DNA of 64,000 bases from Lachnospiraceae bacterium P6A3 (GTDB taxonomy: Bacteria > Bacillota > Clostridia > Lachnospirales > Lachnospiraceae), in the NCBI GenBank assembly GCA_000702085.1, contig JNKP01000004.1, positions 186,001 through 250,000 on the forward strand, written 5' to 3'. Positions 1 through 9,146 of the stretch are shown here, piece by piece. The notes under the pieces were generated by a model. It saw only the letters and a program-made list of their open reading frames with translations. It had not been told where the DNA came from and did not search any database. A program made the position numbers and the translations under genes. How positions within the stretch are numbered: position 1 is the stretch's first letter; the number at the start of each line of letters is the position of its first letter.

Positions 1-1763
1 GCTTCATCCATAGTAAGGTAGTACATATCTTCCGGCTTTTCTATGAGACCGCTTCCGGCAAACCTGTCTCCCATGGTATCAAAGATGAGTCTTACGATTC
101 CGTATATCCTGCTGCGGTTAAGTCTTGATTTTTCTCTTCCCGCTATACCGGCAGCACATCTTTTTCCCAGAAACCTTGTGACAGGGTCTGCTTTTATCGA
201 GAGTTCCTCACTGCGGTTTATATCCTCATACATCTTCTTAAGTCGGGAAGGATCTTTTCTGTATTCTTCGATCCTTTCATCCAGAAGTGAAGGCGTAGAT
301 CTGAAAGTCCTTCTTTCCAGCTTTAATTCCTCAAGGTTTCTGTCCCCGTAAAGTCTTATATATTCTTTTTTACTCTTTTCGAAATCTTCTTCGGATAATT
401 CGTCTTTTCTGTAAGCCAGTTCTATAAGTGCCTTTACCGGCTTCATGCTTTCAATATCCGATATACCCGAAATATATTTATTGATATATGCATCATCACG
501 GTCATATTTCTTGCGAAGCCTGTTTTTTACAAGTCCCGTATAGATAAATGCATACATATCATTAAGAAGAGTAACATCCCATATACTCAGGAGCTTATCT
601 CTTACTTCATCATAAAGCCCGATCAGTTCATTAAGATCCATTTCCGGATCGTAGCTTTCATAAAAATGTTCATTTACTCTTACGAATTCTTTTTCAAGAC
701 TTCTCATATGTCTCGGAACGGACAGAAGTTCATACAAAGAATTCACATAAGTCATACAGCGGACAAAAGGGTTTAAGTTTACTTCTTTGTCGCTTACGGT
801 TTTATTCTTAACCCCGAGCATTTCCTGCCATACGGGAATGATCTTCTTATTAAAAGGAAGAAATTTCAGCACCGTATACCAGTTGCTGATCTTGTAATAC
901 ATTCTCCCGTTAGCATCACCGACCATGTTGTTGAAAACATCGGTGTGCTTGTTTAATTCTTTATCATTCTTAAGTACTCTTCGGCTTACACCTTTAAACA
1001 CGCCGCCGTAAACCATATGTACAAAAGATACTGTTAACGGCAGGGATAAACCCGGATAGCTCTCGACTATATTACTGTTGTCGAGTATCAGAGGATTGTC
1101 CCCTTTGATCGTAGTAATGGGTCTTGCCTGCAGGATATAAAGCTTTCCCTTTGAATATGCAAATTCTATATCCAGATAATCTCCGAGAAGCTCCCTGATC
1201 TTACCGGATACTTCCATCAACTCTTCTACCTGATCGGAAGAAAGAAGATCTTCTTTTCCTTCGAAGTAAAATAATTTATCAGTCTGATGGTAATAATATG
1301 TGGTCGTGTCAGAAGATCCGGATACCACACCTTCTCCCAGGCCTCTTGCACAAGCGATCACGCTTTCATTCAAAAGACCCTGAGGATTTGATGTAAACAA
1401 AACTCCCGACGTATCGGCATCTACCATGTCCTGGACAATAACGCACATCTTAAGATCGGCCGGGCTTAGCTTACGACTGTCCATATAACCGATTACATTT
1501 TCGGCATTGACCGAATCCCTGCACGCGCGGATCTTTTCAGGGATTTCTTCCGGCTTTACATTCAGATAAGTCACAAATTGCCCTGCGAAGCTTTGATCCG
1601 CACCGTCTTCGAGATTACAGCAGCTTCTTACGGCAACTTTTCCTTTTCTCGAAGTGAATCTGCTTTCATCAAATTCTTCGCCGAATTCTATTATCTCGAA
1701 AACGGGAACATTAAAGCCCGCCTCTTTCAATTTGATCAGATTGTCAGCTTTGCTTCCGTACAT
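1..1763 (-). CDS. PEP-synthase/rifampin-phosphotransferase-like dikinase B (3' end outside window)
   Basis: The reading frame is open from ATG at 1763 to the left edge (about 587 codons), so the C-terminus is missing. The N-terminal ATP-grasp (PPDK_N) fold is clear: GFNVP near residue 20, a SFAGQF motif in the first 90 residues, VIVQDMVDADTSGVLFT, and LYILQARPIT near residue 240. The last visible residues, YYLTMDE, are the linker that normally precedes the phosphohistidine domain, which would lie outside. The start is chosen by GGAAGGA just upstream, and the gene begins 1 nt after the ubiA stop. It is a paralogue of the dikinase at 4143-6650. These enzymes move the beta-phosphate of ATP through a histidine to an acceptor. 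The acceptor here is unknown; the lipid-gene context suggests a lipid alcohol or glycerol derivative (inference). Confidence 0.85.
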   Translation of the reverse strand, partial: MYGSKADNLIKLKEAGFNVPVFEIIEFGEEFDESRFTSRKGKVAVRSCCNLEDGADQSFAGQFVTYLNVKPEEIPEKIRACRDSVNAENVIGYMDSRKLSPADLKMCVIVQDMVDADTSGVLFTSNPQGLLNESVIACARGLGEGVVSGSSDTTTYYYHQTDKLFYFEGKEDLLSSDQVEELMEVSGKIRELLGDYLDIEFAYSKGKLYILQARPITTIKGDNPLILDNSNIVESYPGLSLPLTVSFVHMVYGGVFKGVSRRVLKNDKELNKHTDVFNNMVGDANGRMYYKISNWYTVLKFLPFNKKIIPVWQEMLGVKNKTVSDKEVNLNPFVRCMTYVNSLYELLSVPRHMRSLEKEFVRVNEHFYESYDPEMDLNELIGLYDEVRDKLLSIWDVTLLNDMYAFIYTGLVKNRLRKKYDRDDAYINKYISGISDIESMKPVKALIELAYRKDELSEEDFEKSKKEYIRLYGDRNLEELKLERRTFRSTPSLLDERIEEYRKDPSRLKKMYEDINRSEELSIKADPVTRFLGKRCAAGIAGREKSRLNRSRIYGIVRLIFDTMGDRFAGSGLIEKPEDMYYLTMDE

Positions 1764-1764
1764 C

Positions 1765-2664
1765 CTAGATCCTTCCGACAAGCAGGAACACCACTATAGT
1801 AAGCAGCATTGTCGATTCCTGCAGATAAGTGTATCTTTCGACTTTTTCCACCAGGACAAATTTCTCCGGGTCTTTCATATACTGAATAAATTTCCATGTC
1901 ATCCAGGATACCAGCAGGAACAATATTACAATCGAGATTTTGTTCAGTCTGAATACGAGAATAAAGTTTGTAATAATATCAGCGATGGTAAGTATCATTA
2001 CAAAGCGTGTTGATTTCTTATATCCGAACAGTTTCGAATAAGTAGTATAATCATTTTCGTCTTTTGGAGCTTTTATCTTACGTGATACTTCCCAGATAAG
2101 TGCAGGAAAATATAATGTCCACAAAGTCATGCATGTGGTCAGAGTGACTGCACGAAGATCATACTTTATGACAGTGAAAGAAATTATATACAGATTTACA
2201 AACATCTGAACAGGATTATGAGTTACAAGTGCAAGAGGCAGTGAAGGCTGGATCTTGGCTCTCTGGAAAAACCATTTACTCATGAGATATCCGTATGCAT
2301 AGAGAATACCGAAGAACAAAAGATTGTTCATATAGATTACATTCAAAACAACCGCAATGATCTCAAAAAATACACAGAGAATCATTACATCTTTTTTATA
2401 AACGGCTCCCCTTGCAAGAGGTCTGTCCGGGAATAAAACCTTATCGGTTTCAAAATCCTTAAGATCGTCCGCAATCCTGAGCCATAAGAGAAATGCAAAG
2501 ACCGTATACGCACCGGTGATCTCCTGCATCCCTATCTTAAAATCCGTCACGCCTTCGTTAAGAAGTATAATAAAATGAATTTCGAGAAATACGATGAGTC
2601 CCAATATCAATCTGGGAATCAGCGGATATCTTTCCTTCATATATATATGCATTCTTTTCAGCAT
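1765..2664 (-). CDS. UbiA-family prenyltransferase
   Basis: A 299-residue polytopic membrane protein with about eight hydrophobic segments. The first Asp-rich motif of the UbiA superfamily is visible as ADDLKDFETD (residues 65-74), followed by FPDRPLARG. The second conserved loop is SRKIKAPKDENDY near residue 200. UbiA enzymes bind a prenyl diphosphate through Mg2+ held by these aspartates and transfer the prenyl group to an acceptor in the membrane. Quinone synthesis is one role. Archaeal digeranylgeranylglyceryl phosphate synthase is another member of the same superfamily. Its start overlaps psd by 7 nt and its stop is 1 nt from the next gene, so it is translated as part of a lipid operon. 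The acceptor and donor cannot be read from the sequence. Confidence 0.85.
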   Translation of the reverse strand: MLKRMHIYMKERYPLIPRLILGLIVFLEIHFIILLNEGVTDFKIGMQEITGAYTVFAFLLWLRIADDLKDFETDKVLFPDRPLARGAVYKKDVMILCVFFEIIAVVLNVIYMNNLLFFGILYAYGYLMSKWFFQRAKIQPSLPLALVTHNPVQMFVNLYIISFTVIKYDLRAVTLTTCMTLWTLYFPALIWEVSRKIKAPKDENDYTTYSKLFGYKKSTRFVMILTIADIITNFILVFRLNKISIVILFLLVSWMTWKFIQYMKDPEKFVLVEKVERYTYLQESTMLLTIVVFLLVGRI

Positions 2665-3518
2665 GATGTTCCGACTCCTTCCCCGTACAATACTTTTGTT
2701 TCAATGTGATCTGCACTCATCCTGATTAGATCATAATCCGGCCGAACGGCATCTTTCTTAAAGAGCTGTACTATGGTCGAACCTCCGGGTTCAAAATATC
2801 CTTTCTCCTCACCCTTTTTAAAATCGGTCACATCCCTGTTTACGATTTTTCCAATAAGAAGTGCACCCACCTCGATATGTATAACTTCTCCGAAATGTTT
2901 TGTGGAGAGAACGTTTACCACTCTGTAATTTTCTTTATATATCTTATATGCCTCGGATAAAGGACTGACCGTGTGAAATTTTCCCTTTATCGTATGTGAA
3001 CAGGTAATCGTTCCGTCATCGATAAAACAATATCTGTGATAATCATCTACGCACAGGCGGTATACCAGGCACTTTCCTCCGGAGTACTCATCAAGATTAT
3101 CTACACCCGGTGCAATCTCTTCCAAAGAATAAGTTCTTCCCTTAATATCAATTCTTGTAGAATCTCCTATGTCATAGATCAGAAGCTTCGAGTCGGCGGG
3201 AGATATCAGTCTGTTTTCATCACTGTCTATTGTCCTTGCTCCCGGCCTTATCTTTCTGGTAAAGAAATCGTTAAATGACTCGTACTCCCTGTCTTCAAAA
3301 TCTTCCATCCTGATTTTGTTGGATTCAATAAAACCGGGAATCTTTTTCTTACTGGCTTTACCTGAATTAACCTTACCGTATATTCGTGACACAAAAGGAG
3401 ATACGGCAATACGCAGAAGAACCCTTCCGGCAAAATTTCCATACAGGAATTTCAATGCTCCCTGACCATATTGAACAATCTCCTCATACTCTTTTGTTTT
3501 CCTGTCATATATTCTCAT
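2658..3518 (-). CDS. psd: phosphatidylserine decarboxylase proenzyme
   Basis: A 286-residue protein that decarboxylates phosphatidylserine to phosphatidylethanolamine at the membrane, using a pyruvoyl group made by self-cleavage. The cleavage site GGST lies at residues 245-248 (Ser247 would become the pyruvoyl). The first triad Asp is in SPADSKLL (Asp109) and the conserved His is in DDYHRYC (His161), so the Asp-His-Ser set for autoprocessing is present. The length fits the proenzyme family. The start overlaps the pssA stop as ATGA and the 3' end overlaps ubiA by 7 nt, so PssA, Psd and UbiA are translationally coupled. An archaetidylserine or other ether-lipid substrate is possible given the CarS-like gene upstream (inference). 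Confidence 0.9.
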   Translation of the reverse strand: MRIYDRKTKEYEEIVQYGQGALKFLYGNFAGRVLLRIAVSPFVSRIYGKVNSGKASKKKIPGFIESNKIRMEDFEDREYESFNDFFTRKIRPGARTIDSDENRLISPADSKLLIYDIGDSTRIDIKGRTYSLEEIAPGVDNLDEYSGGKCLVYRLCVDDYHRYCFIDDGTITCSHTIKGKFHTVSPLSEAYKIYKENYRVVNVLSTKHFGEVIHIEVGALLIGKIVNRDVTDFKKGEEKGYFEPGGSTIVQLFKKDAVRPDYDLIRMSADHIETKVLYGEGVGTSC

Positions 3519-4129
3519 ACTGCAAATACGTAAAGTGCGATCACTGCTATCGCAAGTATTCCGAAGAATGCATATGCCAATCCTTTAGGCTTAACCATCT
3601 TCACCTTGATCACTTCAAGTATGGTAACGATGACCATTGATAATGTATATACGACCGCAAATATCTCCCCGGGAAGAATCTTTACCGTAAGATACATTAT
3701 GGAGAAAACAAGTGCAGCATAGGTGATGGGAAGACCGGTGTAATATTTTACGGGGCCTTCACTGTCAGCTGTTATTACATTAAAATATCCCAATCTCGCA
3801 ATTCCGGCGACGGCATACAGGACATATATGATCAGATGAACCGGAGACATTAATCCGATATTCATATAGATCGATACGGGAAGAGCAATAAAACTTATTA
3901 CATCAACAAGAGAGTCCAGTTCAATTCCGAATGCTTTTTCTTCTTCGGTTCTCTTGAATCTTCTTGCAACGGATCCGTCAAACAGATCACATATTCCGCA
4001 CAAAGCAAGACAGATAAAACTGTAACTGATCAGTCCCTTAACGGACAGGAAGATTCCGACTACAGCCAGACTCATTCCGATATAAGTAAGTATCACGGAC
4101 GGATTCCAGAAGCCTACGATTTTTTTCAT
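3515..4129 (-). CDS. pssA: CDP-alcohol phosphatidyltransferase, PssA type (CDP-diacylglycerol-serine O-phosphatidyltransferase)
   Basis: A 204-residue integral membrane enzyme with about six hydrophobic helices. The CDP-alcohol phosphotransferase signature is present as DGSVARRF (residues about 53-60) followed by FGIELDSLVD, giving the metal-binding Asp residues. The spacing between the AR pair and the Gly is 11 residues, slightly longer than in Bacillus PssA. The RTEEEKAFG linker is, from memory, common in clostridial relatives. The enzyme swaps CMP for L-serine on a CDP-activated lipid. Coupling to psd supports serine as the alcohol. It starts 13 nt after the dikinase at 4143-6650. Whether the lipid tail is diacylglycerol or an ether/prenyl lipid is not visible. 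Confidence 0.88.
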   Translation of the reverse strand: MKKIVGFWNPSVILTYIGMSLAVVGIFLSVKGLISYSFICLALCGICDLFDGSVARRFKRTEEEKAFGIELDSLVDVISFIALPVSIYMNIGLMSPVHLIIYVLYAVAGIARLGYFNVITADSEGPVKYYTGLPITYAALVFSIMYLTVKILPGEIFAVVYTLSMVIVTILEVIKVKMVKPKGLAYAFFGILAIAVIALYVFAV

Positions 4130-4142
4130 ATCAGTTCTCCGA

Positions 4143-6650
4143 TCACTTAACTATCGTAACCGTTCCGGTACTTCCGTCTATGGTTACGGTCTGTCCGTCG
4201 CGGATCTTTTGCATCGCATCCTTGCAGCATACGATTGCAGGTATTCCGTATTCTCTCGATACGATGGCAGCATGACAGAGTATGCCGCCGTATTCCGTTA
4301 CAATTCCGGAAAGGATCGCAAACTTAGGTGTCCATCCCGTATCCGTGAATCTTGTAACCAGAATATCGCCTTCCCGGAGTCTGTCTATCTGAGTAAAGTC
4401 TTCTATCACTCTTGCGATTCCGGTAACACTTCCGTTATTTGCGCCCAGTCCCTTTATGGAAGCATCCTTAACCTGCGCATCTCCTCTTTGTTTTGAAAAT
4501 ACGGTTCCTATCTCGTTATCGCTTATATAATTTCTGTAGCAATCGTAATAGTACTTATTTCTGATTATGATGTTTCGAAGATCTTCTGCTGTTTTCTTAC
4601 CGTCAATATAATCCCACAGATCTCCGACTTTCAAAAACCATACATCCTCATAACTTTCAAGAACACCTTTTCCCGTCAGATGCTTTGCATACTCCATGGT
4701 ATATATTCTGAGCATGTAATAAAATCTGGTGGAAACATCTCTGAACTCTTCTCTCCACCAAAGCATCTTTCTCATTCCGGAGACTTTCTTTTCCACTTTA
4801 CGGAAAGTACGGTCGGATACCTTGGCACGGACCTTCTTTAAAACCTCGGTATACATTCTGTGTCCGTTTTCCTTATCTTCAAGAGGCGAGTACGAATCCT
4901 CAAGAAGGACCATATCCTTAACCATGGCAATTATGGTTTCGGGTTCTTCGTAATAACAGGGATAAGTGATATCAAGTTCTTTGTCAGAGTGATATCCGTA
5001 CTTATCTATGATAGCTTTTATCGCCGGGATATAATTGCTTTCCGATGTAAGCTCACCTGCGATCTTTTCAGCTCCTGTATTTTTCCAATATGCAAATGCC
5101 TTTTCGTCTTCCCGGATCCGTCTTGTAGCATCCCACATTTCATAGAAAGGAAGGAGATGAGAGATATTGTCTATATTTCCGAGAAGAGACAGATACTCAC
5201 TTTCGGATACATACTTAAGCAGACTGTCCTTATATAACGACTGATGAATTGTATTGATAAATATCTGCCAGAAATATGTAGTCTCACTTCTGAGATATGT
5301 TTTCTTTGTGATCTTTACAAATTCCTTTTCGATATCGGGAATGGTTTTGTTGTCGTAGTTTTCTTTATACTTATAGTACTGCTCAAGTAATTCGTCTTTA
5401 TATCTCTGATTGTTTTCTCTTCTGCCTTTAAGAATCTGACTCTGCTTTATGACAATACGGATCATTCTCGTAACGGATGAAGGAGTAATCTTTGTGGTCT
5501 GTCCGTCGCCTTCATAATCTCCGATGATCCCGTATTCACTGTCGAACTCTCTTTCCTTATATCCTATGACCTGACTCATGGCTTTTTTGACTGCGGACAT
5601 ATTCCAATAAGGACGTCCGTAGAACATTTCACCGAGTTTTTTGGGAAGCTCGTCATCTCTTAATATCTCCGACTTTACTATGAATGACCGAAGGGCAAAT
5701 TCCCATATATATTCATAAAGGCTCCACATGTACGGAGTGCAGACCGTTGCGGATACGCCTCCGTCCTTAAAGTCCGCGGTAGTCCACATGTCGGTGATAC
5801 CGTTATATCCGATCTTTGTGATTCTGCGTGCCTGCAGTATAAACAGCTTCTCATCCGCTATGGCAAATTCGATATCGCATGGATATCCGAAAAAGTGCTG
5901 GATATCCGAGAATACTTTCGCATATTTCTCAACGGTTTCCGGTGCAAGGAATTTATTTGAATTATTTCTTTTGACTTCCTTTCCGTTGTACCAGTCATAG
6001 AAATACTGCTCGGGAGCGGTCTTTCCGCTTACAATGTTTTCACCCAGTCCTTCGGAAACCTCAATAAGCATCTCTTTATCAAATCCGTTTACGGGATCGA
6101 TGGTGAAACAGATTCCGCTCAGATCGGAGTCAACCATTTCCTGAACGACTACGGACATTTTCATCGAAGGAGCATCAATACCGTTATTGGCAACATACTG
6201 AAGTATCACTTCTCCGAACATGGATCTGTAGCAATCGATCACTTTGGAAGCGATATCTTCTTTGCTGACATTCAAAAAAGTATCGTACTGTCCGGCAAAA
6301 GAATACTCTTCCAGATCTTCCATGTTGCCGCTGCTTCTTACAGCAAAAAGCTTTCCTTCCTGTGCAAGCTTATCAATCTGTGTGCCTATATCTGAAGGAA
6401 TTTTAACTTTATCAAACAAAGCATTTATTTCTTCCGATATCTGCTTTACATTATCTTTGGTCAACTTACCCAGAGATTCTTTTACGGAAGTGCCTATAGC
6501 ATTTGCTGCTATCACCTCATCGTATATATCGGTGTCGAGTATGAATCCGCCCGGAACATTAAATCCGTTTTTCTTCATCTGAAGAAGAAATTTACCTTTA
6601 TTTCCGAGTTTGTCCTCTCTTTTTTCATCAAGTTCAAGTTTTACGATCAT
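4143..6650 (-). CDS. Rifampin-phosphotransferase-like three-domain dikinase A
   Basis: An 835-residue enzyme. The N-terminal ATP-grasp domain shows GFNVPGGFILD, RSSGNMEDLEEYSFAGQYDT, VVVQEMVDSDLSGICFT and LFILQARRIT (residues about 28-280). A long central region follows (about 290-745) with no match I recognise. The C-terminal swivelling phosphohistidine domain ends the protein: TEYGGILCHAAIVSREYG, with His793 as the expected phosphocarrier. The TIM-barrel PEP/pyruvate domain of true PEP synthase is absent, so the layout matches rifampin phosphotransferase: ATP domain, acceptor-binding domain, His domain. It is therefore expected to phosphorylate a hydroxyl acceptor and release AMP and Pi. 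The acceptor is unknown. Position in a lipid operon 15 nt after the CarS-like gene suggests a lipid or lipid precursor; antibiotic inactivation is the main alternative. Confidence 0.85.
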   Translation of the reverse strand: MIVKLELDEKREDKLGNKGKFLLQMKKNGFNVPGGFILDTDIYDEVIAANAIGTSVKESLGKLTKDNVKQISEEINALFDKVKIPSDIGTQIDKLAQEGKLFAVRSSGNMEDLEEYSFAGQYDTFLNVSKEDIASKVIDCYRSMFGEVILQYVANNGIDAPSMKMSVVVQEMVDSDLSGICFTIDPVNGFDKEMLIEVSEGLGENIVSGKTAPEQYFYDWYNGKEVKRNNSNKFLAPETVEKYAKVFSDIQHFFGYPCDIEFAIADEKLFILQARRITKIGYNGITDMWTTADFKDGGVSATVCTPYMWSLYEYIWEFALRSFIVKSEILRDDELPKKLGEMFYGRPYWNMSAVKKAMSQVIGYKEREFDSEYGIIGDYEGDGQTTKITPSSVTRMIRIVIKQSQILKGRRENNQRYKDELLEQYYKYKENYDNKTIPDIEKEFVKITKKTYLRSETTYFWQIFINTIHQSLYKDSLLKYVSESEYLSLLGNIDNISHLLPFYEMWDATRRIREDEKAFAYWKNTGAEKIAGELTSESNYIPAIKAIIDKYGYHSDKELDITYPCYYEEPETIIAMVKDMVLLEDSYSPLEDKENGHRMYTEVLKKVRAKVSDRTFRKVEKKVSGMRKMLWWREEFRDVSTRFYYMLRIYTMEYAKHLTGKGVLESYEDVWFLKVGDLWDYIDGKKTAEDLRNIIIRNKYYYDCYRNYISDNEIGTVFSKQRGDAQVKDASIKGLGANNGSVTGIARVIEDFTQIDRLREGDILVTRFTDTGWTPKFAILSGIVTEYGGILCHAAIVSREYGIPAIVCCKDAMQKIRDGQTVTIDGSTGTVTIVK

Positions 6651-6665
6651 GTCTTTCTCCGAATC

Positions 6666-7274
6666 TTAAAATGGATTTTTTCTGAGCTTACACAAATAGA
6701 GCAGTACATTCATTACGATATGTGTAAATGCTCCGACCAGCACATAAAGTAAATATAATCCTATGCCAAGGTCATAGAATAACCACACAACAAGTGCACA
6801 TCCGAATATGGAATCCGCCTGATCCAGGAAAATGAAAAAGAATCTCCATCCTCCCGATATGGTCTTCCCGGGTGTTATGTCCAATCTTCTCTTAAGAAAG
6901 CTGTTGGGTAATTCAAAGAGTGCATATCCGAGTCCGAGTAAGAATCCCGTCATCAGATTAAACAGAAATGTGTTTTCATGATATGCATAGAAAAAATTAA
7001 GATGTTCGATATTTGCCGCATGGCATACCACGCCCCAGATCACTGTCGAGACCGTACCAAAGAGCAGATATCCGATAAAACCTTTCCAGGTTTTGTTATC
7101 CCCGAATATCCTCTTTCCGTCGCAGAAATTCTTACCCATATCCATGGGCTTCATCGCGGGCTTCATTATTTTGGTCTTGCACCAGACCATAACAAGTACC
7201 CCCGCAATAATGGCAGGAAGCAATGTGACATACATCTTCACTATCGTCTCCGCCAGAAACTTTAAACTGTTCAT
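6666..7274 (-). CDS. CDP-archaeol synthase-like (CarS/DUF46) membrane cytidylyltransferase
   Basis: A 202-residue protein with about five membrane segments. It carries the conserved CarS pattern: FGDNKTWKGF (57-66), ELPNSFLKRRLDITPG (121-136) and LDQADSIFG (150-158). In archaea this family transfers CMP from CTP to unsaturated archaetidic acid (digeranylgeranylglyceryl phosphate), giving CDP-archaeol. Bacterial relatives exist and their substrates are mostly unproven. It is the first gene of the lipid operon and is followed after 15 nt by the dikinase. A CDP-activated lipid is exactly what the PssA two genes downstream needs. A normal CdsA role is less likely because the motifs are of the CarS rather than CdsA kind. 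The start ATG is preceded by GGAG. Confidence 0.8.
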   Translation of the reverse strand: MNSLKFLAETIVKMYVTLLPAIIAGVLVMVWCKTKIMKPAMKPMDMGKNFCDGKRIFGDNKTWKGFIGYLLFGTVSTVIWGVVCHAANIEHLNFFYAYHENTFLFNLMTGFLLGLGYALFELPNSFLKRRLDITPGKTISGGWRFFFIFLDQADSIFGCALVVWLFYDLGIGLYLLYVLVGAFTHIVMNVLLYLCKLRKNPF

Positions 7275-7306
7275 TATTGTTTTTCTCCGGGTAGGACTAC
7301 AGTAAA

Positions 7307-7339
7307 AGGCGTATGCTCCTCATACCGGAACATACGCCT
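7307..7339 (-). terminator. Rho-independent terminator after the GNAT gene
   Basis: Nine-base-pair stem AGGCGTATG / CATACGCCT followed on the minus strand by TTTTACTG. It lies 30 nt past the stop of the acetyltransferase at 7369-7821 and just before the lipid operon. It may also form in the 5' leader of that operon if transcription starts upstream (a TATGGTAAAAT -10-like box lies at about 7343-7353). Confidence 0.7.
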
Positions 7340-7368
7340 CTATTTTACCATATTTATGCCGTTTTCGC

Positions 7369-7821
7369 CTAAAACTTATACTGCATGAAATTTCCGTTTT
7401 TGACAAAACCGAAATCCGTATAAAGCAGAACTCCCATGTCGGAAGCTGTTATCTGAACGACACCGCATCCGTAATTTCTTGCCTCTTCAACCACTCTGGA
7501 TAACAGCTCTTTGGCAATACCTTTTCTGCGGTAATCCGGATCGGTAAACATGCTGGACAAAAGACCTATCTTTCCACTGGGACAACTGAAATAGGGTGGC
7601 TTTTCCACAAAAGACATGCCGCTTGTCCCCACTATTTTGTCCCCGTCCATGGCAAGCCAGGATACGAAGGTTCCGTCACTCATATGCCTGTTGTAATAAT
7701 CCTTGAGATGAGGTACAAGATCGATATCTTCCGTCGCTCCTTCTTCACGAAGCTGCTTTATTCGCATACTGATGAATGTATCAAGCCGGTTTTCGGATAA
7801 TTTACAATAACTGATTCCCAT
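7369..7821 (-). CDS. GNAT-family N-acetyltransferase
   Basis: A 150-residue single-domain GNAT. The acetyl-CoA pyrophosphate loop is DPDYRRKGIAKELL (about 99-112), followed by a helix and a hydrophobic beta strand (VVQITASD) and the usual C-terminal hydrophobic GF segment (LLYTDFGFVKNG). A strong Shine-Dalgarno (ACGGAGGTGATGG) precedes the ATG. It is a single-gene unit: a terminator hairpin lies on each side. It transfers an acetyl group from acetyl-CoA to an amine whose identity cannot be inferred. Confidence 0.85.
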   Translation of the reverse strand: MGISYCKLSENRLDTFISMRIKQLREEGATEDIDLVPHLKDYYNRHMSDGTFVSWLAMDGDKIVGTSGMSFVEKPPYFSCPSGKIGLLSSMFTDPDYRRKGIAKELLSRVVEEARNYGCGVVQITASDMGVLLYTDFGFVKNGNFMQYKF

Positions 7822-7964: not shown

Positions 7965-9146
7965 TTATTTACTGCATCTGCGGAAAAGAGAACCGTAAGT
8001 ATAAGTTATCTCTCCATTGTTATTAATGTCGTCTTCGAATACTTTTATTATCTTCTTACGATTATCATTCAGGAATTTCTGCTGGCCCGGATACCTCGCG
8101 CACATACGATCGAACAGTTCTTCAGCCTCTGTAAAATGCCAGGTATTTTCAAGAGTGATAAGATCCACCTTCTTGAAATACTTCTTCAGCATCTCATCAC
8201 AGGCATCCTGACCCGATTGTTCCTCATTTACGATCTCATCTATAAATGAAGAATTAAGTCCGGCTTTTTTCAGATATTCCTTGTTAAATGCATGCCATCC
8301 GTTGACCGATGCCGCATTACAGGAGAAAATTCCGCCTTTACCCAGAACCTTACTCGATCTCTCCACAAGAGCTTCGAAGTCTTTCACCTGATAACTCAGA
8401 TAGTGGGCTATGATAAGATCATATTCTTTATTCCCCGAAATCTTCTTCCATGCGCTCTCACCTTCCAGATCATCGAATTCGAGAGATATCTCCACTCCCT
8501 TCGGAAATTTGTTTTTGTTTTCCGAAACATACTTTTCGAAATCATCCGCCCAGCTTCCGTGAATGTCATAACCGAAGATCTTGCTTCCTTTAGGGATATC
8601 ATCGCGGTTATTTCTCCAGAGCTTTGCATATCCGCATCCCAGATCCAGGATCTTCATATCGGGAGAAAGATTCAGAGATTTGAATATCTTTACATACCAG
8701 TCTTCTTCCTGAGAAGTATGCTTAAGTGCATCCCAATGTCTTTCATCCGCTGCCTGATCGAGATTTATGGTTCTCACCATCTCTGCCACATCATCCCAGT
8801 CAAGATTTCCGGTATTTCTTTCGAAGGTTCTGTTTATCGCTGCGATGACTTTTTCAATGCGATACTTTTTGTCCTCCATGTTCTTAAGCTGGATTTTCAG
8901 AGCCTCTTCTACATTCGAAGCTTCTCCCTGAATGAGATTGTCCCTGATCTCTTCAAGTGAAAAACCTATCTGCTTAAGTGCCACGATCTTTTCAAGAACC
9001 TGAAGTGCCGCCGTGTCATACAGACGATAATTTCCTTCGGAATAATCCGATGGTTTGAGAAGGCCCTTCTCATCGTACAGACGAACTGCCTTCTGAGATA
9101 CGCCTGCTTTTTTTGCAATTTCCCCTGATGTCATTTTGTCGTTCAT
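7965..9146 (-). CDS. MerR-family regulator fused to a SAM-dependent methyltransferase
   Basis: A 393-residue two-domain protein. Residues 1-70 are a MerR winged helix-turn-helix (GEIAKKAGVSQKAVRLYDEK, then GNYRLYD and IGFSLEEI). A dimerisation coiled coil follows (about 75-115). From about 160 a class I methyltransferase begins with ILDLGCGYAK (motif I) and YDLIIAHYLSYQV (motif IV region), reaching the C-terminus. The methyltransferase probably acts as the effector domain, sensing or modifying a small molecule. A strong RBS (AAGGAGGTTCC) and a MerR-type promoter lie directly upstream, so autoregulation is likely. It stands alone between its promoter and a terminator. Confidence 0.85.
   Translation of the reverse strand: MNDKMTSGEIAKKAGVSQKAVRLYDEKGLLKPSDYSEGNYRLYDTAALQVLEKIVALKQIGFSLEEIRDNLIQGEASNVEEALKIQLKNMEDKKYRIEKVIAAINRTFERNTGNLDWDDVAEMVRTINLDQAADERHWDALKHTSQEEDWYVKIFKSLNLSPDMKILDLGCGYAKLWRNNRDDIPKGSKIFGYDIHGSWADDFEKYVSENKNKFPKGVEISLEFDDLEGESAWKKISGNKEYDLIIAHYLSYQVKDFEALVERSSKVLGKGGIFSCNAASVNGWHAFNKEYLKKAGLNSSFIDEIVNEEQSGQDACDEMLKKYFKKVDLITLENTWHFTEAEELFDRMCARYPGQQKFLNDNRKKIIKVFEDDINNNGEITYTYGSLFRRCSK

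Follow-up and report, generated by a model that had tools for sequence, protein, structure and literature searches.

Several described systems come close to the operon analyzed here, a set of eight genes in Lachnospiraceae bacterium P6A3 that starts within a 64,000-nucleotide stretch of contig JNKP01000004.1 (assembly GCA_000702085.1, positions 186,001 to 250,000; this whole stretch is called the window) and continues beyond its left edge. The first is the archaeal glycerophospholipid pathway, for which PMC9385802 gives a UbiA-fold enzyme (digeranylgeranylglyceryl phosphate (DGGGP) synthase, with an Asp-rich motif 3), CarS, serine transfer and decarboxylation. These elements recur in the operon, which differs in its kinase step, in an acyl ligase and an acyltransferase, in an altered motif 3 of UbiA and in that a geranylgeranylglyceryl phosphate (GGGP) synthase was not found. 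The second is the phosphosphingolipid pathway of Caulobacter, which, according to PMC11324152, comprises AasR, the N-acyltransferase CC_1154, proposed as ceramide synthase (CerS), the ceramide kinase CC_1160 and the CDP-alcohol-like protein CC_1161. Like our operon, it brings together, in the service of one lipid, an acyl-activating ligase, an N-acyltransferase, a kinase for a lipid alcohol and a CDP-alcohol transferase. Here, however, UbiA and a dikinase occur instead of serine palmitoyltransferase (zero matches in the P6A3 genome with a single query, the Pseudomonas veronii protein, used without a positive control), the kinase is a dikinase or DgkA, and explicit CarS, PssA and Psd would lead to ethanolamine and not to phosphoglycerate. 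The third is rifampin phosphotransferase (RPH), which shares with both dikinases of the operon, DK1 and DK2, a three-part architecture with a C-terminal phosphohistidine and an Arg-Glu pair (residues as given in PMC4844700, where phosphoenolpyruvate synthase-like dikinases are called a large unexplored group). DK1 and DK2 differ from RPH in that they score far below its family model and are encoded in a lipid operon, and DK1 in that it is swapped for DgkA in other members. We put even odds on the operon producing its own phosphoethanolamine lipid, built on something other than ordinary diacylglycerol; the head-group half of this reading is well supported, the core half is tentative.

Conservation of the cluster and exchange of its kinase

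Relatives were collected from a sample of 250 genomes of the same family, P6A3 included, and from a profile scan of a collection of named genomes, in which 330 matching stretches gave 269 relatives, the best 80 of which were used. With the window locus and 11 relatives these make 92 loci, or 89 after removal of three duplicates. UbiA was found in 12 of the 250 genomes (P6A3 among them), and every one of these preserves CarS, UbiA, DK2 and the GNAT-type acyltransferase as a cluster (CarS is inverted in one). Strong CarS matches (40 bits or more) occur in exactly these 12 genomes; strong GNAT matches occur in the same 12 and in one more genome, in which the contig starts within DK2. CarS also gave weak matches in 39 further genomes of the family; these lie in open frames of 267–308 residues, which is the size of CdsA, and we read them as probable CdsA proteins. 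In a phylum-wide sample the UbiA profile matched one of 398 genomes, that of P6A3, and it gave zero matches in plasmids. Carriers are mostly rumen and gut Clostridia (among them Butyrivibrio sp. INlla14, Butyrivibrio sp. XPD2006, Lachnospiraceae bacterium AC2028 and Ruminococcaceae bacterium YRB3002), and the cluster looks clade-limited and patchy.

Among the 89 loci, UbiA is present in 89, DK2 in 86, GNAT in 83, Psd in 82, CarS in 81, DK1 in 75, PssA in 70, the ligase in 66 and DgkA in 8, some of the absences being contig ends. The full order CarS-DK1-PssA-Psd-UbiA-DK2-GNAT-ligase is found in 45 of the 89 loci, and some of the others are cut by contig ends. Order and adjacency counts and the UbiA tree are based on 88 loci, L088, which is cut inside GNAT, being left out; the four-protein tree described below likewise excludes L088. 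Where both genes occur, they are adjacent in 71 of 72 loci for CarS-DK1, 8/8 for DgkA-CarS, 67/68 for PssA-Psd, 79/81 for Psd-UbiA, 83/85 for UbiA-DK2, 82/82 for DK2-GNAT and 66/66 for GNAT-ligase. Within three open reading frames of the cluster, counting those of at least 100 residues, no other family exceeds 15 loci (an ABC ATPase). Because the gene set and its order are conserved across loci, the cluster is more than a chance assembly, and the expectation of a preliminary description of the window, namely that the genes stay together in relatives, is borne out. Two kinds of irregular gene structure were seen: L024:10647-13053 and L096:10897-13171 have DK2 broken into two reading frames (frameshift or assembly error), and in L088:9441-12467 a single open segment holds DK2 together with UbiA (whose match reaches residue 291 of the model region), two genes that have separate frames in the other loci.

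In eight loci without DK1, a protein of 115–134 residues belonging to the prokaryotic diacylglycerol kinase family (DgkA, PF01219; Pfam assignment) is encoded directly upstream of CarS and thus holds the pathway position of DK1. Across the 89 loci, 75 have DK1 only, eight DgkA only, none both and six neither; a contig edge truncates four of these six (L041, L046, L053, L094), and two (L085, L106) carry another gene upstream. Whole-genome searches of 12 cluster genomes showed DgkA to be absent from all six genomes with DK1 and present once, inside the cluster, in each of the other six. On the UbiA tree (88 rows) the kinase label needs two changes, a single one of which is enforced by strongly supported branches. 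Another tree, from four proteins joined end to end, was calculated for 43 loci, thinned from 69 that have all four genes and one kinase (L024, L038, L048, L049, L054, L070, L078 and L103 had been set aside beforehand for broken, cut or odd genes); on it, strongly supported branches force two switches, and a single DgkA clade is rejected (p-AU 0.003). DK1, with about 835 residues and a mechanism that by homology would release AMP and phosphate, is unrelated to DgkA, yet the two replace one another at one position and therefore most likely do the same job. Lipid alcohols are what DgkA phosphorylates, and DK1 is hence probably a kinase of such an alcohol that supplies CarS, PssA and Psd. In the preliminary description both dikinases phosphorylate a lipid alcohol or glycerol ether ahead of CarS: for DK1 the mutual exclusion with DgkA supports a lipid alcohol, and the role of DK2 can only be inferred.

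Candidate enzymes of the head group and of the core

Most NCBIfam matches of the operon proteins fall below their cut-offs. CarS reaches 92.6 bits with the archaeal CarS model (cut-off 148) and lies above the Pfam cut-off for PF01864; PssA matches archaetidylserine synthase best (80.9 bits), followed by pssA (72.1), both below cut-off, and Psd gives 273 bits with PRK00723 (cut-off 371). PssA and Psd, which occur in all 12 cluster genomes, would, by their family assignments, install serine and then the ethanolamine head group, in support of what had been proposed earlier. The P6A3 genome has a second, stand-alone PssA-Psd pair at G000:C5:89381-90834 (L221:3382-4835).

DK1 and DK2 are paralogues (25% identity over 725 columns), and both align with RPH in the ATP-grasp domain, the central domain, the C-terminal phosphohistidine and the Arg-Glu pair. 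The phosphohistidine is invariant (DK1 His793 in 37/37 rows, DK2 His713 in 27/27); of the pair, Arg is conserved in 36 and Glu in 37 of the 37 DK1 rows, and each in all 27 DK2 rows. The best NCBIfam match of DK2 is a phosphoenolpyruvate synthase model (PRK06241.2-3, 830.8 bits, cut-off 850).

UbiA has the fold of its superfamily, a score above the Pfam cut-off and an intact first Asp-rich motif, and it matches best the generic prenyltransferase model PRK13592 (404.8 bits, cut-off 443). Where DGGGP synthase has its Asp-rich motif 3, an invariant Arg195-Lys196 is found (45/45 rows; the correspondence was placed by eye). Each of the 12 cluster genomes encodes one trans-prenyl synthase.

The acyltransferase matches Escherichia coli YghO by profile; against a six-member YghO family hhalign gave 99.8% (E 1e-30, 314 columns), as compared with 9.5% for a control, an ordinary GNAT encoded beside the operon. 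Searches by sequence for a solved-structure relative gave no convincing result (one match, E 0.52). Homologues of YghO have as neighbours an AONS/SPT-like gene in P. veronii (at about 3 kb), genes for a class I/II aminotransferase and an acyl carrier protein in Sphingomonas (at about 6 kb), and genes of the acylglycerol kinase family and for a CDP-alcohol transferase in Roseomonas (at about 5 kb). The neighbourhoods in P. veronii and Sphingomonas, where SPT-like genes are no more than 7 kb away, suggest that YghO is the CerS family, of which CC_1154 is presumably a member. The presence of a YghO/CerS-like acyltransferase and of an acyl ligase points to an acyl chain on the core, and by analogy UbiA and DK2 would take the places that serine palmitoyltransferase and ceramide reductase have in sphingolipid clusters. 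More distant YghO/CerS-like proteins, which gave weak GNAT matches, are encoded in 13 genomes of the family sample that have no UbiA match (e.g., G224, G055, G039 and G160; L205-L208), and Vescimonas fastidiosa (Clostridia) has a YghO-like GNAT on a large plasmid (L112:8977-10155), with no SPT-like gene annotated beside it.

Operon layout and neighbouring genes

Gene calls were checked against Pfam and NCBIfam cut-offs, and DNA left of the window was added to complete the locus (stretch L002; Table 1). The six window genes, all on the minus strand and tightly packed, are as reported in the preliminary description, with which positions, strand, small gaps or overlaps and Pfam families agree; the acyltransferase and the acyl ligase had been missed because they lie outside the window. 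Gaps of 15 and 13 nucleotides separate CarS from DK1 and DK1 from PssA, PssA and Psd overlap by 4 and Psd and UbiA by 7 nucleotides, and further left DK2 and GNAT overlap by 4 nucleotides and GNAT and the ligase are 20 nucleotides apart. The gap between UbiA and DK2 is 1 nucleotide if DK2 starts with the ATG at 1763, which matches the consensus start of its relatives; an alternative listed TTG start would overlap UbiA.

Table 1. Genes of the operon in Lachnospiraceae bacterium P6A3; positions without a prefix are those of the window, scores are in bits
Feature	Position	Strand	Remarks
CarS-like CTP-dependent cytidylyltransferase, 202 aa	6666..7274	-	PF01864 82.9 (cut-off 22); first operon gene
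Dikinase 1 (DK1), RPH-like ATP-grasp/substrate/phosphohistidine protein, 835 aa	4143..6650	-	PPDK_N 205.3; PEP-utilizers 89.3
PssA-like CDP-alcohol phosphatidyltransferase (serine), 204 aa	3515..4129	-	PF01066 52.9
Psd, phosphatidylserine decarboxylase family, 286 aa	2658..3518	-	PF02666 159
UbiA-superfamily membrane protein, 299 aa	1765..2664	-	PF01040 36.2 (cut-off 34.2)
Dikinase 2 (DK2), N-terminal part in window	1..1763	-	PPDK_N 143; PEP-utilizers domain beyond edge
DK2, whole gene	L002:9505-11781; left end G000:C3:185505		Completed from DNA left of window
GNAT/YghO-CerS-like acyltransferase, 353 aa	G000:C3:184447-185508		Outside window, next to DK2
Acyl-AMP ligase (AMP-binding), 488 aa	G000:C3:182960-184426		Outside window, next to GNAT

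Leftward of the ligase the P6A3 operon continues with three more genes (esterase, LytTR regulator and DUF3021; L002:5371-6950), after which comes a terminator-like hairpin (11 pairs and a run of T; 16 such sites occur in the whole of the stretch searched, with 9.4 expected). Esterase relatives occur near the cluster in three loci and LytTR relatives in five, the window locus being counted in both, and this rarity places these genes outside the operon core. On the other side, inspection by eye showed about 12 base pairs forming a hairpin, with TTTT after it, at 7304-7340, between an upstream GNAT gene (7369-7821) and CarS and about 30 nucleotides before the CarS start; it may be either the terminator of the upstream gene or a leader attenuator. 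The translation of the open reading frame at 7965-9146, likewise read by eye, appears to join a MerR-type DNA-binding start to a methyltransferase-like domain. Rfam gave zero matches in L002.

Predicted pathway and competing explanations

In the pathway that we propose, the AMP ligase would activate a fatty acid and the YghO/CerS-like GNAT would attach the acyl chain, probably to an amine and possibly to a hydroxyl (step 1). UbiA would attach an isoprenoid chain provided by the single trans-prenyl synthase of the cell, and DK2 would phosphorylate the acceptor or an intermediate (step 2). DK1, or DgkA in other members, would then phosphorylate the free hydroxyl of the assembled lipid (step 3), CarS would turn the lipid phosphate into a CDP-lipid (step 4), PssA would swap CMP for serine (step 5) and Psd would decarboxylate the serine head group to ethanolamine (step 6). 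Steps 3 to 6 are supported indirectly by gene content, conservation, the DK1/DgkA exclusion, catalytic residues and homologies, and what the two chains and the acceptor are, and what DK2 does, we infer only. The product is most likely a two-chain lipid with one putative isoprenoid and one putative acyl chain that carries phosphoethanolamine. A more specific version, which we offer tentatively and consider rather doubtful, is a hybrid lipid with an archaeal-style isoprenoid ether chain and an amide-linked acyl chain, that is, an isoprenoid ceramide analogue with phosphoethanolamine, in whose synthesis serine palmitoyltransferase has given way to UbiA plus one RPH-type dikinase and the second RPH-type dikinase represents a new lipid kinase family. 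Searches of open-licence PMC papers turned up no prior description of the cluster, which is no proof of absence.

Several points weigh against a dedicated lipid with its own core. The product is a prediction from the genes, the operon holds no enzyme for the acceptor or the amine, and no RPH-type dikinase is known to act on lipids. Motif 3 of UbiA is altered, so that something other than a prenyl diphosphate may serve as the donor. The YghO homologues of Vescimonas, Bacteroides finegoldii and E. coli K-12 have no SPT-like gene annotated near them. Nineteen of the 89 loci gave no PssA and seven no Psd, a few of these being contig-end cuts, L085 and L106 have UbiA-DK2-GNAT-ligase without CarS or a kinase directly upstream, and the ligase is missing in six of the eight DgkA loci. 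In Gram-positive bacteria DgkA often acts as an undecaprenol kinase, and this would be in line with a polyprenol as the substrate instead. Finally, the cluster holds the sole Psd in eight of the 12 cluster genomes, and that Psd must therefore also serve any ordinary phosphatidylethanolamine (PE).

This last point, like the occasional location of PssA and Psd outside the cluster, speaks for an ordinary PE operon, in which CarS would be an alternative CDP-diacylglycerol synthase, PssA and Psd would produce normal PE, and the other genes (UbiA, both dikinases, GNAT, ligase) would be unrelated or accessory. We nevertheless consider this explanation unlikely. A separate CdsA is encoded elsewhere in the P6A3 genome, CarS is therefore dispensable for diacyl lipids and hence dedicated, and the kinase (DK1 or DgkA), CarS, UbiA, DK2 and GNAT are more constant than PssA. 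In the PssA tree, moreover, five of the six stand-alone copies group with support apart from cluster PssA, together with one copy (L055) whose gene is about 3 kb away from a cluster; the sixth (L132) sits on a long branch and its place is unsure, and the cluster copies L027 and L028 are nearer to the stand-alone group than to the remaining cluster copies. The dedicated lipid pathway suggested in the preliminary description finds support. There, a CdsA homologue had been named, jointly with an ordinary lipidome, as a sign against such a pathway; CdsA was indeed found, and we read it instead as indicating that CarS is dedicated.

A carrier lipid, to which we assign a somewhat smaller chance, would arise if DK1 or DgkA phosphorylated a polyprenol, from which CarS would form CDP-polyprenol and PssA and Psd a single-chain polyprenyl-phosphoethanolamine, or if the kinase fed the cell-wall carrier pool. 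The substrate often used by Gram-positive DgkA fits this explanation, which leaves the acyltransferase and the acyl ligase unexplained.

An archaeal-type ether lipid with two isoprenoid chains on glycerol-1-phosphate, the core first proposed for this operon, appears improbable and was discarded in that form. CarS, PssA and UbiA each match archaeal lipid enzyme models among others, and the nearest structures of UbiA are DGGGP synthase, tied with Aeropyrum pernix UbiA. Against this, UbiA scores 26.3 bits with the DGGGP synthase equivalog model PRK12883 (cut-off 353), its motif 3 differs, the archaeal route needs no lipid-alcohol kinase, and PcrB/GGGP synthase (PF01884) gave zero matches in the 98.97% complete P6A3 genome, with controls matching in 7 of 14 genomes (five above cut-off). 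The preliminary description had suggested that a GGGP synthase gene might lie left of the window; the DNA there holds the GNAT and acyl ligase genes. A secondary-metabolite or drug-inactivation cluster, with dikinases that phosphorylate an antibiotic as RPH does, is the least probable explanation, and rifampin resistance was rejected as the main role, since, even though the solved structure closest to either dikinase is that of RPH, DK1 and DK2 reach only 328.2 and 202.8 bits with the NCBIfam model RIF_Ptrans_rph (cut-off 999), the survey of neighbours revealed no further family of wide occurrence, and DK1 is exchanged for a lipid kinase.

If the operon does make a dedicated phosphoethanolamine lipid, a whole class of phospholipids of rumen and gut bacteria would hitherto have gone unrecognised. 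A core without diacylglycerol, or one of mixed isoprenoid and acyl chains, would bear on the lipid divide and on host signalling by ceramide-like lipids, and the many phosphoenolpyruvate synthase-like dikinases without an assigned substrate would gain a lipid as one.

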